A stretch of DNA of 48,026 nt from Candidatus Enterococcus ferrettii (lineage in GTDB: Bacteria > Bacillota > Bacilli > Lactobacillales > Enterococcaceae), in NCBI RefSeq assembly GCF_017377655.1, contig NZ_JAFREL010000039.1, positions 1 through 48,026 on the forward strand, in the 5' to 3' direction. Under the pieces are notes generated by a model. The model saw only the letters and a program-made list of their open reading frames with translations, was not told the DNA's origin and ran no database searches. Every line of letters begins with the position of its first letter. Within the stretch, counting starts at the first letter, position 1. Positions 12,058 to 46,929 of this stretch are shown here, piece after piece. Made by a program: the position numbers and the translations under genes.

Positions 12058-12141
12058 GCGGAAGTGATGGAATGGCAGACATGCAAGATTGAGGGTCTTG
12101 TGAGCGTAAGGCTCGTGTGGGTTCAAATCCCATTTTCCGCA
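12058..12141 (+). tRNA. tRNA-Leu (anticodon GAG)
   Basis: The sequence folds as a class II tRNA. Acceptor GCGGAAG pairs with TTTCCGC with discriminator A; the D stem is ATG/CAT; anticodon stem CAAGA/TCTTG holds loop TTGAGGG with anticodon GAG; a long variable arm TGAGC...GCTC follows; the T arm is GTGGG/CCCAT with TTCAAAT. CCA is not encoded. The long variable arm and GAG anticodon identify a leucine tRNA for CUC/CUU codons. Confidence 0.93.
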
Positions 12142-40066: not shown

Positions 40067-40363
40067 ATGAATATGAAACTATCGCAACGACAAGAAGATG
40101 AAACGAGAGTAAAAATGTTAAAAGCTCTAGCTGATCCTGCAAGATTGGAAATTATTCGCTTACTTAAAAATAGTGGTAAGGAAATTGGTTGTGGAGAGGT
40201 TGGTGAAAGTATTGATTTAAGTAAATCAACCGTTTCTTATCATTTCAAAGCACTTAGGGAAGCTGGATTAACATTTACTAGAAAGGAATCTAGAGAAAAA
40301 TTTGTTTCATTAAACTATGATGCTTTTAATAAGTATCTTTCGGGATTCCTAGATTCACTATAG
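40067..40363 (+). CDS. ArsR/SmtB-family transcriptional regulator
   Basis: The 98-residue protein is a winged helix: LKALADPARLEIIRLLKNSGKEIGCGEV, then the recognition helix STVSYHFKALREAGL, and a wing with TRKESREKFVSLN. Only one Cys (in IGCGEV) is present, so it probably does not use a classical cysteine metal site and may sense another ligand. An in-frame ATG two codons later (MKLSQ) is an alternative start. It most likely represses itself and the MFS/nitroreductase genes 113 bases downstream. Confidence 0.85.
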   Translation: MNMKLSQRQEDETRVKMLKALADPARLEIIRLLKNSGKEIGCGEVGESIDLSKSTVSYHFKALREAGLTFTRKESREKFVSLNYDAFNKYLSGFLDSL

Positions 40364-40476
40364 AATCTGGGTTTCTTTTTCTGCGATATATTCATAATCC
40401 CAGAATAAGCGTAAATTATTATTCTATAGTTCTATATTTTTAGAACAATCAAATTAATGCGACTGGAGTTGTTTTT

Positions 40477-41661
40477 ATGAAGAAATATTCTTTTATCTTT
40501 TTCTTAGTCATGTTTTTAATTGGTACTGATACATTTTTAGTATCTCCACTTTTACCTACTTTATCAGAACTTTATGGAATTTCATCAAGTATATCAGGTT
40601 GGATGGTAAGTGCTTATGCTCTAGGTTATGCTTTGTTTGCGTTAATAAGCGGTCCTTTTTCTGATGGAAGGGATCGTAAAAAAGTTATGATTTTTGGTTT
40701 TATCGGTTTTGCTTCATCAACATTTTTATGCGGATTTGCAACAAGTTTCGAACTAATGATATTATTCAGATTTTTAGCTGGGGTGAGTGCATCTTTTGTA
40801 ACTCCACAAGTATGGGCTTCAATACCTGTCATTTCACCTAAAGAAAAGATTGTAAAGATGATTGGAATGGCTAGTGCTGGATTGGCTATTTCACAGCTTA
40901 TTGGAGTTCCAATTGGAAGCTATCTAGCTGTAATATCTTGGAGAGCCCCATTTTTCGCAATCTCAGGCGCTTCACTTATTATGATATTAATAGTAAGTAC
41001 GATTTTACCTTCACTAAATATTCAGAGTCAGATAGCACAAAACTCTTCAATTATAAAGATTTATAGAGGTTTACTAAAAAATAGTCTAGCTATAAAGTAT
41101 CTAGTTGCTTATTTAGTTTTTCAAACTGGAAACTTTTGTATGATGACATTTATTGGATCTTGGTTGACTAGAGATTTTCATCTAGGGGTTTCTGGTGTTG
41201 GTACAGCAATGATTGCAATTGGAGCAGGAAATCTAATAGGAACATTGTTTGGGAACAAGCTAATAGCTCGATGGGGAATACCAAAATCATTACTTATTGG
41301 CATTCTATCTCTTTGTATTCTTTATTTTATCGCACCATTTTCTAGTTCTCTGATTATGGCAGAAGTGGTATTAACTTTAGCTTTTGTTGTCAATGGATTC
41401 ATCTTCCCAATATTTATGACTACTTTACAAAGTACGACTACTACAGCAAGAAGTACGATCTCCTCTCTGTCAAACGCAGCGATGTACACTGGAACGACAA
41501 TCGGGGGAATAGTAGGTGGGATACTATTTACTAGATTTTCTGGTTTCTTTGGTATAGCTTTCTTTACAATTGCTACTTATTTAGTAGTACTGCTAATTTA
41601 CAAGGCAGGAGGAATTTTCGATAGTAAAAAACAGGAAACTAGTAAAGGAAGTGTAAACTAG
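40477..41661 (+). CDS. MFS efflux transporter (DHA1 type)
   Basis: The 394-residue transporter has twelve hydrophobic segments and the MFS motif A in GPFSDGRDRKKVM between helices 2 and 3. The opening VSPLLPTLSELYGISSSISGWMVSAYALGYAL is typical of DHA1 drug:H+ antiporters (AraJ/YdhP-like). GGAG lies before ATG 40477. It follows the ArsR gene and is separated by one base from the nitroreductase-like gene, so the three probably form a detoxification unit. Substrate unknown. Confidence 0.88.
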   Translation: MKKYSFIFFLVMFLIGTDTFLVSPLLPTLSELYGISSSISGWMVSAYALGYALFALISGPFSDGRDRKKVMIFGFIGFASSTFLCGFATSFELMILFRFLAGVSASFVTPQVWASIPVISPKEKIVKMIGMASAGLAISQLIGVPIGSYLAVISWRAPFFAISGASLIMILIVSTILPSLNIQSQIAQNSSIIKIYRGLLKNSLAIKYLVAYLVFQTGNFCMMTFIGSWLTRDFHLGVSGVGTAMIAIGAGNLIGTLFGNKLIARWGIPKSLLIGILSLCILYFIAPFSSSLIMAEVVLTLAFVVNGFIFPIFMTTLQSTTTTARSTISSLSNAAMYTGTTIGGIVGGILFTRFSGFFGIAFFTIATYLVVLLIYKAGGIFDSKKQETSKGSVN

Positions 41662-41662
41662 G

Positions 41663-42376
41663 ATGAATGAAGTAATTAAAACTATATCAAACCATGTTTC
41701 AAACAGAGTTTTTGACGAGGATTTCAAAATTGATGATAAGAAAATACAAATAATAACTGCTTGCTTAAAGAATGCACCTACTCATATAAACGGACAATTT
41801 TACAGTGTAATAATAGTTAATGACAATGATAAAAAGGGCAAATTAGTTGAGTTAAACCCGTTGAACAGTCATATGTTAAAGTCATCAGTATTTTTGCTTT
41901 TCGTTGCTGATTTTAATCGTTCAAAAATTATAATGGGTTCGAAAAACCTAGAACATGATTTTGGGACAAATATTGATAATCTGTTGGTTGTAGGAATTGA
42001 TGCTGGATTAGCTGCTATGAGCGCTGTCAATGTTGTCGAAAGTCTTGGATTAGGATGTGTAATTGTAGGAGGTGTTAGGTATCATGCAAATAAGATAATT
42101 CAATTGTTTGAACTTCCTGAATACACATATCCATCTATAGGGAAACCACTAGATAAACCTGGTAAAAGACCTAGAATTTCAGCTAGATTTAATATTTTTG
42201 AAGAAAAATATGACAGCATACCAAATGATTTTTTCTAAGAGTATGATCAAATCTTAATGGAGTAGGGAATAACACACGATACGACTTGGAGTGACTATAT
42301 CGCAAATTACTTTTCTAATGATACTTTGAAAAATATTACAAAGGACAACTTAAAACAGCAAGGGTTTTTAAGTTGA
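41663..42376 (+). pseudogene. NfsA-type nitroreductase interrupted by two in-frame stop codons
   Basis: From ATG 41663 the first 191 residues match the NfsA/FRP flavin reductase family (HINGQFYSVIIVND, VVGIDAGLAAMSAVNVVESLGLGCVIVGGVRYHANKI, PSIGKPLDKPGKRPRIS). The first stop is TAA at 42236-42238. The same frame then continues EYDQILME, a TAG at 42263-42265, and GITHDTTWSDYIANYFSND to a final TGA at 42374-42376. This tail has the usual NfsA C-terminal look (YD...W...I) and restores a normal length of about 236 residues. So the gene was broken by point mutations, or a shortened 191-residue product is made. Cotranscribed with the MFS gene. Confidence 0.7.
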
Positions 42377-42794: not shown

Positions 42795-43574
42795 TTAGTC
42801 TCTAGATATCATAATCATTTCTTCAGTGATTTTTTCCACAATGTTTATAATTGTTTTTGGAGAGCGAAGTTTTCTAGGGATATCGATTGGATAAACTTTC
42901 GCTATACGTCCTGGATTCGAGTCCATTAAAATTACTCGATCAGAAAGCTGAACAGCCTGTTGAATATCATGAGTAATCATTACAATTGATTTTGTAGCAA
43001 TTTGATTTTCTAGCCAAATTTCTAATAAATCATTGGATAGTTGGCTAGCAGTGACGATATCTAGTGCGGAAAAAGGTTCGTCTAACAATAATAAGCTAGG
43101 TTCAGTCGCTAATGCTCTGGCAAATCCAACTCGCTGCTTCATTCCACCAGACAGCTCACGCGGATAGGCTTTCTCAAAGCCATTTAAACCAATCATTTCG
43201 ATCAAGTTTTTCACTCTTCTTTTTACTTGTTCGCGTGAGAGCCCACTGTGATTTTCTAGACCAAAACTGATATTTTTTTCGACGGTCAGCCAAGGAAAAA
43301 GAGCGAAATGTTGGAATACCATACTTATATTTGAGTCAGGTTCTGATATTTTTTTGTTTTCAAAAATAATTTCACCGGTAGTTGGTTGTACGAGTCCTGC
43401 AATACTTCTTAGTAAAGTTGATTTACCAGTTCCCGATTGCCCAATAACGCTCAGAAATTCATTGGTTTTAACGGTTAGATTTACGTTATCTAGGACTTTC
43501 AAATTCTCCTTATGTCCTTCAATTTCAAATTCTTTATAGACAGATTTCACATTTAACAATTCTGTATTTTCCAT
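42795..43574 (-). CDS. ABC transporter ATPase of the NitT/TauT (SsuB-like) type
   Basis: The 259-residue ATPase has Walker [10 protein letters not shown] (45-53), Q-loop [10 protein letters not shown], signature LSGGMKQRV, Walker [13 protein letters not shown] and H-loop MITHD. The Q-loop context and length place it with nitrate/taurine/sulfonate importers. AAGGAG is about 40 bases before the ATG at 43574. Between them is a possible 10-bp hairpin (8 Watson-Crick plus two wobble pairs) that would shorten the distance. No closer start exists after the upstream in-frame stop. It pairs with the fused permease upstream and shares its leader. Confidence 0.88.
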
Positions 43575-43701: not shown

Positions 43702-45459
43702 TTAATAGTGGAACCGATCTTTAGCGATTCGATAAAGAGGTTGCCAAATAAATGCAATACATAGTCCCACAATAAAACACATGGCCAAAGTCCCTAATGC
43801 AGACTTGTCTTTTATGCCATCGTTGATCGAAATATAGTGACCTAATCCTGTTACATCAATTTGTTTTTTTCCCCATTGAATGCTTTCAGCAGCGATGTCT
43901 GCATTCCATGCTGCACCCGCAGCATTAATAATCGCTGTAATGATGTAAGGTAAAATAGACGGGATGAGATATTTAACCCACCATTGCCATTTAGAAAGCT
44001 TAAATATCTTTGTTACATCACGAATCTCATCAGGAATTGCTAAATAACCAGCAATAACATTGAAAAAAAAGTACCATTGGCAACCTACCATGATGAGCGG
44101 CAAAGTCCACCATTCTAGCTTGTTAAAACCAATACTTATGAAAATAACGATGAACGGCGTATAGATATTTGAAGGAATCGAACCTATTACTTGTCCAATT
44201 GGTTGAACAACATTCAGTCGGCGATTATCGCTGGCAACCCAAACCGCTAATGGTATGAAAATCAATCCAGCAACAATCATCGCTAACGTTACTCGTAAAG
44301 TGGTATCCAGCATCAATTGTGGAATCAAACTAAAATCCTGGTGTGGCAAGAAATAATAAAGTTTGATTGACCAATTTATAACTAAAATAGCTAAGAGAAC
44401 GTACCAAAGAGTTTTGAAAAAATTTCGAAGCTTCGCTACTTTTCTATACAGACAATCCAGCTTAAGGAAATACCAGATCTTAGGCAGTTTATAAATCCAG
44501 AAAAAACTAAAATTAGCAAATACTCTTGAAAAATATTTAGTTATAGAAGCATGCTGAATCAACTGATAAACCAATGATTTTGGTGGAACTGAACTTTCGA
44601 TATCCGCTTCATACTTGAAATAATAGGTAGCCCTGACTAAAGGTTGAAAAACTAAGAAGTTAAGGATTACAACATTAAGCAGTAACGCCAAGATAGCCCA
44701 TAAACATGCTTTAAAATCTGCGCGGTCTAATGCTACCTGAATATAGGAACCAATCCCAGGTAAAAAGAGTGTCTTCTCTTTTGACAATACAACAGAAGCT
44801 TGCTCACTGGCTACTAAGGCAAACCAGGCAGCAGTTTGCGAAATGATCACATTCCATAGCAATCCTGGAATCGAATAAACAAACTCAAGTCGCCAAAATT
44901 TTTGCCAAGGATTATACTTGAATTGATCGGTCACATTGAGCAAATCAGAAGGAACAACTTCCATTATTTGATAAAGTGTCAGCATAATGTTCCAAGCTTG
45001 CCCTGTAAAAATTGCAAAAATTGCGACACATTCTAACCCCATCACATTTCCTGGAAATAGACCAAGTAAGCCAGTTGTTGTAAAGGTTAAAAAACCTAAT
45101 AGCGGAACAGATTCTAAAAAGTTGACTAATGGTAAAATAATCTGTCTAGCCGTTTTATTTTTTGCTGCCAAAATGCCAAAAATAAAAGAAAAGAGGAAAG
45201 ACCAGGCCATCCCGACAATCATTCGAAACATCGTGCGAATGGAAAAATAGAAGAGATTGCTTATCGCCAGAAAATCATTTTGAGGTCTGGCTACTGATAA
45301 AAAATCCTCTGATGGCAAACTATTAAGAGGTCGATTCATTTTTATACTCGAGAAAACCATAATAAATAGAAACAAGGTGAGAATGACTATTATAGTAGTG
45401 TTTCCAAGAGCTTTCATGAGAGTAGATTTTTTGGTGATTGGTGCTTTTAAAACGTTCAA
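43702..45459 (-). CDS. Fused double ABC permease (NitT/TauT-like)
   Basis: The 585-residue protein is two BinaDepTranspInn domains in one chain. Half 1 covers about 65-290 with an EAA-like loop at 167-200; half 2 covers about 375-575 with an EAA loop at 473-505 (IPDEIRDVTKIFKLSKWQWW). Each has about five to six helices, and a polar linker lies between. No substrate-binding protein gene lies nearby, so binding may occur in the permease or on an unlinked protein. TTG 45459 has AGGAGG eight bases upstream, inside a terminator-like hairpin. The leader contains an M-box-like riboswitch, which suggests a role in divalent cation uptake or another Mg2+-linked process. Confidence 0.85.
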   Translation of the reverse strand: MNVLKAPITKKSTLMKALGNTTIIVILTLFLFIMVFSSIKMNRPLNSLPSEDFLSVARPQNDFLAISNLFYFSIRTMFRMIVGMAWSFLFSFIFGILAAKNKTARQIILPLVNFLESVPLLGFLTFTTTGLLGLFPGNVMGLECVAIFAIFTGQAWNIMLTLYQIMEVVPSDLLNVTDQFKYNPWQKFWRLEFVYSIPGLLWNVIISQTAAWFALVASEQASVVLSKEKTLFLPGIGSYIQVALDRADFKACLWAILALLLNVVILNFLVFQPLVRATYYFKYEADIESSVPPKSLVYQLIQHASITKYFSRVFANFSFFWIYKLPKIWYFLKLDCLYRKVAKLRNFFKTLWYVLLAILVINWSIKLYYFLPHQDFSLIPQLMLDTTLRVTLAMIVAGLIFIPLAVWVASDNRRLNVVQPIGQVIGSIPSNIYTPFIVIFISIGFNKLEWWTLPLIMVGCQWYFFFNVIAGYLAIPDEIRDVTKIFKLSKWQWWVKYLIPSILPYIITAIINAAGAAWNADIAAESIQWGKKQIDVTGLGHYISINDGIKDKSALGTLAMCFIVGLCIAFIWQPLYRIAKDRFHY

Positions 45460-45462
45460 AAT

Positions 45463-45494
45463 AAAAACCTCCTAAATAATCATATTAGGAGGTT
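45463..45494 (-). terminator. Intrinsic terminator/SD-sequestering hairpin of the riboswitch
   Basis: On the minus strand AACCTCCTAA (45494-45485) pairs perfectly with TTAGGAGGTT (45475-45466) around a nine-base loop, followed by a T-rich run up to the TTG start. The right arm contains the AGGAGG ribosome binding site of the permease gene, so folding would both end transcription and block translation. Confidence 0.8.
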
Positions 45495-45690
45495 ACTCAA
45501 AAAAGAAAAGATGATAAGTAATCACGTAATTGAGCTTTGGCTTTCTGAGACGTAAGAAAATAAATTCTAGTTATCTTAGGAAAGCCTTAATTCGACAATC
45601 CCTGCTTTACTCGTTACTGTCTCTCGACATTTCCGAGCGATAACCTGTGTTCTTCAGAGTAACCTCACCTAATATGATTCTATTTTGTTG
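45481..45690 (-). promoter_or_regulatory. M-box (ykoK-type, Mg2+) riboswitch upstream of the ABC operon
   Basis: Read on the minus strand, the leader shows in order ATTAGGTGAGGTTACT (45673-45658), GCTCGGAAATGTCGAGAGAC (45638-45619), AACGAGTAAAGCAGG and GAATTAAGG. These follow the order and spacing of the M-box conserved core as I remember it (GUUAGGUGAGGCUCCU, AAAUGUCnAGAGACGCCAA, GGGUCAACAG, AUAAGG). The CTCG/CGAG stem and a GGCTTTC/GAAAGCC stem are present. Segment 45676-45657 can also pair over 18 bp (9+9 around a TG bulge) with 45498-45481, which competes with the terminator at 45494-45466. M-boxes normally shut off Mg2+ transporters when Mg2+ is high. Assignment is by memory of the family, not by a covariance search. 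Confidence 0.8.
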
Positions 45691-45699
45691 TGCAAATTT

Positions 45700-45727
45700 A
45701 TAATACTCGCGAAATAGAATAAAACAA
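45700..45727 (-). promoter_or_regulatory. Promoter of the riboswitch-controlled ABC operon
   Basis: On the minus strand TTGTTT (45727-45722) and TATTAT (45705-45700) are 16 bases apart. The predicted RNA starts near 45693, about 17 bases before the first conserved M-box segment, a typical spacing for a leader. Confidence 0.55.
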
Positions 45728-46044
45728 CTAAAAATTTGTTGTTGGTACTTCTTAGCAGTACCTATTGTTATTAGATAAGGGTCTTTGATACTTTTCGCTT
45801 TTTGTGTAAAAACTTTCAAGAATAATGGAATAGAATGTTTCTCCAAGTGGAGAGAAAATAATTTGTCATTTTTCAAACGAAAGGAAATATTTTCGAGAAA
45901 TCAACGATAACCTATCTGAAAACTTGTTCCAAACGTTAACATCAATTAAAGAACGTAAGTTATAAAAAAAGTTTCCTTGTTTATAATACAAATTGGGTGC
46001 AAAATTAGGTTGACCTAAAGTAAAGACGCTGGGATGTGGTGAAA
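45728..46044. other. Divergent control region of the LysR gene and ABC operon
   Basis: It holds two inverted repeats, TCTCCA-AG-TGGAGA (45840-45853) and TTAGGT-TG-ACCTAA (46005-46018). Both are candidate operators, the second lying 27 bases before the LysR start. A TATAAT at 45982-45987 may serve the LysR gene. An 89-codon minus-strand frame overlapping the riboswitch has no ribosome binding site and is not accepted as a gene. Confidence 0.45.
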
Positions 46045-46929
46045 ATGTCAATTGAAAAATTAGAGTATTTCTACGTTATTGCCAAGTACAACAGTCTTTC
46101 TAAGGCTTCTCAAGAATTGTATGTCAGCATATCATCTTTGAGCTCTGCTTTAAAAAGTCTTGAAAATGAACTTGGATATGATTTATTTGTTCGGCAAGGG
46201 AAAAGGTTGATGTTAAGTGAGAGTGGGGAAAAAATCCTGCCTGCGGTTGAAAGGATATTAGAAGAAGTTAAAAAAATTCAATTCCCTTTATATCAAAGAA
46301 TTGATCAGCCTATATTTAGAGTAGGAGTGAGTGAGTCGGTCCTAATATTTGAAGCGAATGAATGTACAGTAAAAAGAGAAAGGTATCCTATAAACTATAT
46401 TAATGCCGCGCCATTGGATCTGTTAAATAGATTAAAGCGAAGAGAATTAGACTTCGTAATTACAAATAGCCTAGTTGAAGATTCTCAATTAGAAAGAGCT
46501 TTATTGATCCATTCAAAGATTTTGATTGTTGCACATGAATCGTTAGTAAAAAGTGATTTAAGTGAAATTGCGTCTAAGGATTTAGAAAAAAGGCCCTTTA
46601 TAATTTTGACGGATCAATTAGGACACAGACAATTAACTCAAAAAACAGCTGGTTTTTTCAACATTATTCCTCAGTTTCTTTATTGCCATGATAGTCTGGG
46701 AGTTCAAAAGTGGATAAATGAAAATAGAGGATTTTTAGTAATTCATGCAGCCGAAAAAGAGTTATTGTCAAGCGATACTATTAAATTCTTTTCTTTACCC
46801 AACGAAATGGAAATAGACTATTATCTATATAAAAATAGAAACAATGATCAGTTATTTAATCTTGGAGACATTGAAGAATATTTAAAAGAAGTATTTGCTG
46901 AAATCGAAGGACAAGACAACAGGAATTGA
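46045..46929 (+). CDS. LysR-family transcriptional regulator
   Basis: The 294-residue protein has a clear N-terminal LysR HTH (MSIEKLEYFYVIAKYNSLSKASQELYVSISSLSSALKSLENELGYDLFVRQGKRLMLSESGE) and a C-terminal periplasmic-binding-like effector domain (about 90-290; LDFVITNSLVEDS, GFLVIHAAEKELL). ATG 46045 is chosen; GTG codons at 46036 and 46039 are alternatives behind GGGATG. It is divergent from the ABC operon, so it may regulate it or itself, but the riboswitch appears to control the operon too. A long hairpin at 47197 may end its transcript. Confidence 0.88.
   Translation: MSIEKLEYFYVIAKYNSLSKASQELYVSISSLSSALKSLENELGYDLFVRQGKRLMLSESGEKILPAVERILEEVKKIQFPLYQRIDQPIFRVGVSESVLIFEANECTVKRERYPINYINAAPLDLLNRLKRRELDFVITNSLVEDSQLERALLIHSKILIVAHESLVKSDLSEIASKDLEKRPFIILTDQLGHRQLTQKTAGFFNIIPQFLYCHDSLGVQKWINENRGFLVIHAAEKELLSSDTIKFFSLPNEMEIDYYLYKNRNNDQLFNLGDIEEYLKEVFAEIEGQDNRN

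Follow-up and report, generated by a model that had tools for sequence, protein, structure and literature searches.

An M-box riboswitch ahead of a binding-protein-less ABC transporter operon in Candidatus Enterococcus ferrettii, and a possible class of magnesium importers

The ABC Operon and Its Surroundings

The window, a stretch of 48,026 nt from Candidatus Enterococcus ferrettii (contig NZ_JAFREL010000039.1), carries a two-gene ABC transporter operon on its minus strand, preceded by a regulatory leader. The features of this region, in window coordinates, are as follows.

45700..45727, minus strand: candidate leader promoter, TTGTTT (45722-45727), 16 nt, TATTAT (45700-45705), the first hexamer being a weak match
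45516..45683, minus strand: M-box (Mg2+-I, ykoK) riboswitch aptamer, RF00380, full model length
45657..45679, minus strand: 5' strand of aptamer helix P1, serving also as the predicted 5' half of an antiterminator, AATCATATTAGGTGAGGTTACTC; from duplex energy against shuffles
45478..45498, minus strand: predicted 3' half of the antiterminator, GAGTAACCTCCTAATATGATT; from pairing with the P1 5' strand and folding
45458..45492, minus strand: terminator-like hairpin CCTCCTAA...TTAGGAGG (45468-45492), then TTTTTATTTT; the stem includes the Shine-Dalgarno sequence AGGAGG (45468-45473)
43702..45459, minus strand: fused double permease, 585 aa, TTG start 8 nt 3' of AGGAGG, two PF00528 stretches
42795..43574, minus strand: ABC ATPase, 259 aa, PF00005, without a PF09821 tail
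46036..46929, plus strand: LysR-type regulator adjoining the operon, PF00126 and PF03466
47312..48025, minus strand: LytR/LCP-like gene, named by eye, truncated by the contig end

An earlier note on this DNA had described a fused double permease followed by its ATPase, and the domain matches bear this out, the PF00528 permease domains and the PF00005 ATPase being those of an ABC importer of the NitT/TauT fold. A canonical importer of that kind has a dedicated binding protein encoded alongside. As the same note had observed, no binding-protein gene adjoins the operon in the window; nor was one seen, by eye or annotation, in the neighborhoods of its relatives, except for a MetQ-like lipoprotein gene with its own T-box in E. 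hermanniensis. Four NMT1 (PF09084) matches lie elsewhere in the genome, none of them on contig C91, and a distant binding-protein partner may therefore exist. Neither permease nor ATPase matched the CorA, MgtE, MgtA, or NrmT families in Pfam or NCBIfam; both matched ABC-type and generic P-loop families instead (for the ATPase, among the best 25 of 189 NCBIfam matches).

LysR-type genes similar to the one in the window adjoin the operon in E. malodoratus, E. hermanniensis, and Companilactobacillus nuruki (by eye). Beyond the ATPase gene, positions 40067-42238 hold an ArsR-type regulator, an MFS exporter, and a nitroreductase-like gene. A nitroreductase-like gene (by eye) also adjoins another M-box locus of the same genome (L005).

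The M-Box Aptamer and Its Expression Platform

An Rfam search of the whole window returned two matches at the gathering level. One is a tRNA gene at 12058-12141 (+). The other is RF00380 at 45683-45516 (-), with 132.1 bits against a gathering score of 44, an E-value of 1.4e-29, and coverage of model positions 1-169 of 169. The aptamer ends 56 nt from the ABC operon, on the same strand. The M-box that the earlier note had recognized in this leader thus passes the covariance-model check, and the RNA is almost certainly an M-box riboswitch; the span assigned to it there (45466-45700) takes in the aptamer together with most of the expression platform. The genome (5.4 Mb, 157 contigs) contains five M-boxes above cut-off, including this one. 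Two others lead to P-type cation ATPases, one directly (L005) and one past a GNAT gene (L002, the ATPase identified by eye).

The TTGTTT/TATTAT element upstream of the aptamer is likely to be the leader promoter, since its counterpart, TTG(CTT/TTT/ACA), 16 nt, TA(TG/AG)AT, occurs 8-20 nt upstream of the M-box in six of seven relatives' leaders, the exception being genome G362. A rule-based promoter and terminator scan of the leader missed both this element and the leader hairpin because its rules call for a better-matching first hexamer and allow loops no longer than 8 nt; promoter and terminator were assigned by cross-species comparison and folding.

The expression platform (45458-45498, minus strand) holds the terminator-like hairpin. 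Except for one 2-nt bulge, GAGTAACCTCCTAATATGATT (45498-45478) is complementary to the 5' strand of P1, AATCATATTAGGTGAGGTTACTC (45679-45657), and it overlaps in turn the hairpin and U-run formed by CCTCCTAATATGATTATTTAGGAGG and then TTTTTATTTT (45492-45458). The loop of this hairpin is 9 nt, and its 3' arm consists of AGGAGG, the Shine-Dalgarno sequence of the permease gene, which starts with TTG. A duplex between the first 34 nt of the aptamer and the platform reaches -31.6 kcal/mol, compared with a mean of -13.4 (sd 2.8) for shuffled platforms, none of 500 being as low. Across eight leaders, the shuffles as low numbered 0, 0, 1, 1, 0, 9, 80, and 32 of 500, that is, at most 9 in six of the eight; the alternative pairing is therefore weak in C. 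nuruki and G362. The ligand-free fold pairs aptamer with platform in all eight leaders, over 20 to 36 positions in seven and over 5 in G362, where the terminator is longer and the Shine-Dalgarno sequence lies outside it. Thus in silico the platform offers two mutually exclusive states, aptamer with terminator or antiterminator.

With RF00380 M-boxes elsewhere the riboswitch has in common the full-length aptamer above cut-off and an OFF platform whose antiterminator draws on the 5' strand of P1; it differs in standing before an ABC operon rather than mgtE, corA, mgtA, or nrmT, and in the placement of the Shine-Dalgarno sequence inside the terminator stem. A translational M-box platform is described for M. 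tuberculosis in the portion of PMC12810186 drawn on here. The regulatory half of the finding is ordinary M-box biology.

Relatives in Lactobacillales and the M-Box Regulon of Enterococcaceae

An M-box lies upstream of the permease gene in all 12 Lactobacillales locus records (L006-L012, L016, L017, L024, L025, and L092), which represent 10 distinct loci, L007/L011 and L010/L012 being the same contigs; L009 and L024 may belong to one species. The permease is rare in this order, being found in 5 of 105 Enterococcaceae genomes and 4 of 395 Lactobacillales genomes, three of the latter four shared with the former set. Copies in E. raffinosus and E. gilvus are on megaplasmids, and clade proteins from Lactococcus lactis and Lactiplantibacillus plantarum appear among the matches listed in protein searches. 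In C. nuruki (L016:2953-4730) the permease is divided into two reading frames of 350 and 237 aa, possibly by recent loss or by sequencing error.

The earlier note had placed M-boxes mainly on Mg2+ transporters, which proves too narrow for this family. Among the first ORFs downstream of 32 Enterococcaceae M-boxes, a count in which one protein may score twice, were PAP2 (12), LytR/LCP (10), P-type ATPase (7), FtsW/RodA (6), GNAT (6), and MgtC (1). The individual loci (L001-L003, L034-L063) bear PAP2, PAP2-LCP, FtsW/RodA, GNAT, and MgtC genes besides P-type ATPases. The Enterococcaceae M-box thus appears to define a Mg2+ riboswitch regulon that reaches cell-envelope genes; no novelty is claimed for the connection of M-boxes with the cell wall. 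Several records show a second M-box near the ABC operon (L011:94-261, L025:1309-1475, and L008:400-567 on the minus strand), that of E. malodoratus (L011) standing at the start of a homolog of the window's LytR/LCP-like gene. LCP-like and FtsW/RodA-like genes recur beside the operon in L016, L017, and L092 (by eye).

Magnesium-Type Leaders in Enterobacterial Relatives

Outside Lactobacillales the closest relatives among the matches listed belong to Enterobacterales, and some to Burkholderia and Trinickia. Here other leaders occupy the place of the M-box. The Yokenella permease gene is preceded by an mgtC leader (RF02887) of 81 bits (cut-off 48), an E. albertii plasmid has one before the permease gene at 65.7 bits, and Arsenophonus has a sub-threshold match at 34.5 bits; the mgtC leader is above cut-off in 2 of 13 enterobacterial clade loci.

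A second arrangement is more widespread. A short ORF encoding the peptide motif DEPPS, with an upstream Shine-Dalgarno-like stretch (weakest in Pantoea), is followed, where inspected, by an ORF of ~70 aa and then by the permease gene. The DEPPS ORF is present in all nine members of a subgroup that shares at least 71% identity with Yokenella (the loci of Yokenella, Cedecea, Arsenophonus, E. albertii, Pantoea, G450, G847, G1022, and G1051). It was found in none of the four Serratia-like clade loci, which have no mgtC leader either and one of which (L066) shows an unrelated PPEPP filter match, and in none of 22 outgroup loci with ~1.1 kb of upstream DNA (17 genome and 5 plasmid loci; L077, with 73-277 nt upstream, was left out of this count). 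The DEPPS codons differ synonymously while the peptide is invariant, a sign that the peptide is under selection.

A hairpin begins at the stop codon of the DEPPS ORF. Paired cells make up 95.1% of its helix and 10 cells are two-sided (shuffled mean 3.6), both values being reached by none of 500 shuffles and exceeding all slid versions of the helix; two of the five measures were unremarkable, pairs with two-sided changes (4, a value reached in 29 of 500 shuffles) and further pair types (9, reached in 463 of the 500). The helix was derived from the consensus fold of the same alignment, so that the test leans toward it.

Acidic residues beside prolines in a leader peptide recall MgtL. At low Mg2+, ribosomes drop off at the EPDP motif of MgtL, and by this drop-off the leader senses low Mg2+ and the Mg2+ ATPase gene mgtA is turned on, according to the portion of PMC11282234 drawn on here; MgtL is also treated in PMC11552253, which, as far as its consulted text goes, leaves direct binding of Mg2+ by the RNA possible. 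Like MgtL, the DEPPS leader is a short ORF that precedes a Mg-linked transporter gene and encodes acidic residues adjoining prolines. It differs in the motif itself, and a Mg2+ response of the DEPPS peptide is surmised from this likeness. By analogy, the DEPPS ORF looks like a Mg2+-sensing leader-peptide device of the MgtL kind, and would then probably join MgtL as a second acid-proline leader peptide that senses Mg2+.

Delimitation of the Clade

In a tree of 47 permeases, in which long branches meet, the clade is separated from an outgroup of duplicated permeases with support of 100/100, and the seven M-box-labeled rows and the nine DEPPS rows each branch apart from other labeled rows (100/100 and 98/98). 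Gram-negative clade members are 43-49% identical to the window permease, compared with 30-35% for five outgroup rows. Likewise, the Yokenella permease is 37-40% identical to those of outgroup genome loci and 64-74% identical to those of G847, G450, G1022, G1051, and the Serratia-like loci.

The two groups also differ in their ATPases and leaders. A PF09821 tail, the mark of COG4754, is present on five of five outgroup ATPases and on none of 12 in the clade, which therefore lacks the PF09821-bearing partner ATPase of a COG4986/COG4754-type transporter. No Mg-type Rfam family was found at 23 outgroup loci (eight searched to E 0.1 and 15 at the gathering threshold, L077 having little upstream DNA). 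Common to both are the fused double permease, 30-40% identical between them, and the absence of an adjoining binding protein, the latter at five annotated outgroup loci; the PF09821 tail is peculiar to the outgroup, and M-box, mgtC leader, and DEPPS ORF were not found at the outgroup loci examined.

At permease position 116 all 25 clade rows have Glu and all 22 outgroup rows have Gln; when the clade set is widened, Glu116 is found in 35 of 36 rows, the exception being a Gln in Trinickia (P0123). A P-x8-P register sets Glu116 against an Arg in CmpB and NrtB, permeases for bicarbonate and nitrate that HMMER aligns with the other half of the query. Since the structure model of the permease has a mean pLDDT of 77.7 and its fold matches mostly cover the C-terminal half (323-583), Glu116 is placed by sequence register and not by coordinates. 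Such a change of charge within a conserved motif would suit a cation. The nearest folds are bicarbonate and nitrate importers, the CmpBCD and NrtBCD systems, which differ further from the clade in having unfused permease chains of ~280 residues and in that one of their ATPase chains is far longer, at 665-690 residues.

Judged from its sequences, then, the clade is a distinct group of binding-protein-less, fused-permease ABC transporters with Mg-type leader signals in two phyla. Its distribution appears sparse, partly plasmid-borne (E. albertii, Pantoea, E. raffinosus, and E. gilvus), and repeatedly wired to Mg2+ signals of unlike design. Its members occur in Enterococcus and in enterobacteria, plasmids included. 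E. coli and Klebsiella clade rows are present in the protein search. When the Yokenella locus was compared with 5,426 complete E. coli genomes, 17 genomes matched, none over more than a short piece (3% of the query), which in the listed rows is tauB.

Relation to Known Systems

Regulons of RNA motifs including ykoK were reconstructed in PMC3766115 (main text, in part). The earlier note had considered that this might be an undescribed ABC system, which is not strictly right: a ykoK/M-box leader in the 5'-UTR of the Bifidobacterium breve ABC transporter Bbr_0406-07, whose permease is assigned to COG4986, was reported in 2017, and in the text consulted one sentence suggests a role in metal ion homeostasis (PMC5746004, BMC Genomics). 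The two cases share an M-box type riboswitch before a permease of the duplicated kind. Among the 120 matches listed for each of three protein searches no row is named Bifidobacterium, most rows bearing no name. Within the open-access literature PMC5746004, as far as its consulted text goes, is the only report found of an M-box before a COG4986 ABC transporter, and nothing was found that connects mgtC leaders, a leader peptide of the acid-proline kind, or Mg2+ transport with this ABC clade; the supplementary regulon lists of PMC3766115, which may name the operon, lay outside this search.

A precedent for the reasoning is NrmT, an M-box-controlled, Nramp-related Mg2+ transporter that was found from its riboswitch, as told in the consulted portion of PMC4072509 (PLoS Genet 2014). 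In both cases a riboswitch points to a new class of Mg2+ transporter. NrmT is a carrier for which Mg2+ transport has been demonstrated, whereas the present system is an ABC transporter for which it is deduced. The Mg2+ importers named in that portion are CorA, MgtE, MgtA/MgtB, and NrmT, beside which an ABC-type Mg2+ importer, if real, would be a mechanistically new class.

Proposed Mechanism and Substrate

When cellular Mg2+ is sufficient, the M-box RNA would bind it and shut off the two-gene operon. Mg2+ would fold the aptamer and lock away the 5' strand of P1; the downstream strand thus freed would form the hairpin and U-run, both ending transcription and masking the Shine-Dalgarno sequence. 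The operon should be OFF at high Mg2+ because the P1 strand has its alternative partner in a strand of the hairpin that holds the Shine-Dalgarno sequence, and ON at low Mg2+ because the ligand-free fold joins aptamer to platform: P1 would open, the antiterminator would form, and permease and ATPase would be made. This RNA part of the mechanism draws on homology and folding. The transporter itself would be an ATP-driven importer induced by Mg2+ starvation.

The link between transporter and magnesium proposed in the earlier note is strengthened by the M-boxes, mgtC leaders, and DEPPS ORFs of the relatives, and its interpretation as a whole is partly supported. Because leaders within one clade bear Mg-type signals of unlike design in two phyla, the transporter is suggested to import Mg2+, or a cation closely linked to it, as an ABC system without a binding protein, a reading given somewhat better than an even chance. 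As relatives in unrelated bacteria bear different magnesium-type control signals, the transporter could represent a kind of magnesium uptake pump that has so far been overlooked. The fuller proposal, evenly balanced between true and false, is that the clade is a new ABC class of Mg2+ importer with no binding protein, fused permease halves, and Glu116 in place of the Arg of anion importers, sparse in Gram-positive and Gram-negative bacteria and placed under unrelated Mg2+-sensing devices (M-box RNA, mgtC leader, and DEPPS peptide). A riboswitch match is thereby turned into a testable question of transport.

Since the M-box regulon also includes cell-envelope genes, roles other than Mg2+ transport are conceivable. 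The transporter might carry something else that cells require under Mg2+ shortage, whether an anion, an organic solute, a Mg2+ chelate, or an envelope precursor; the M-box would then act within a wider Mg2+-starvation program. The PAP2, LytR/LCP, FtsW/RodA, GNAT, and MgtC genes under Enterococcaceae M-boxes would fit such a program, as would the FtsW/RodA-like genes beside the operon in G362 (L017) and L092, the LCP-like genes in several loci (by eye), and the anion importers that are its nearest folds. The mgtC leaders, moreover, natively control MgtC, which is not a transporter. Against this stand the three unlike Mg-type leaders on one clade, none of them found on the sister group, and a Glu at position 116 where, by register, anion permeases have Arg; this alternative is regarded as rather unlikely, though to be taken seriously. 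Import of another divalent metal, with the M-box or the shared signals answering to that metal, seems improbable. A structural study of M-box RNA with Mn2+ is on record, and the fold matches include FbpBC of Thermus thermophilus (9j4r), a fused-permease Fe3+ ABC importer; yet the aptamer fits the full RF00380 model, MgtL-type and mgtC leaders belong to Mg2+ control, and the same doubt about Nramp-type transporters was met in PMC4072509 and, in the portion consulted, answered in favor of Mg2+. That the RF00380 match is due to chance, or to a decayed M-box that regulates nothing, is close to inconceivable, given a score and E-value that exclude a chance match, the retention of the M-box in every Lactobacillales locus record, and a matched platform.

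Further Features of the Enterobacterial Loci

The ORF of ~70 aa between the DEPPS ORF and the permease gene is conserved in enterobacteria and ends like KRQRxVEDYIxTLLP; five of its sequences gave no match near curated cut-off in Pfam or NCBIfam. It lies at the following positions.

L013:2629-2862, ~70-aa ORF
L014:2542-2850, ~70-aa ORF
L015:2631-2852, ~70-aa ORF
L022:5481-5699, ~70-aa ORF
L027:3349-3582, minus strand, ~70-aa ORF
L031:1112-1345, ~70-aa ORF
L064:1050-1262, ~70-aa ORF

The Serratia-like loci L066-L068 have a different short ORF, MGDESFSFTLMLLGVFQ or MDDGSFSLVLLDKFQ, some 150-300 nt upstream of the permease gene and followed by a hairpin-like stretch, and a porin-like gene 3' of the ATPase gene. 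PhoP boxes were sought by consensus in six enterobacterial leaders. Matches of 11/12 were found once each in E. albertii and Pantoea and matches of 10/12 once in E. albertii and twice in Arsenophonus, with none of at least 10/12 in Yokenella, Cedecea, or G450; these matches carry no weight here. On the E. albertii plasmid (L022) VirK/YbjX and lpxM genes, PhoP-linked elsewhere, lie ~1.4 and 2.9 kb from the operon.
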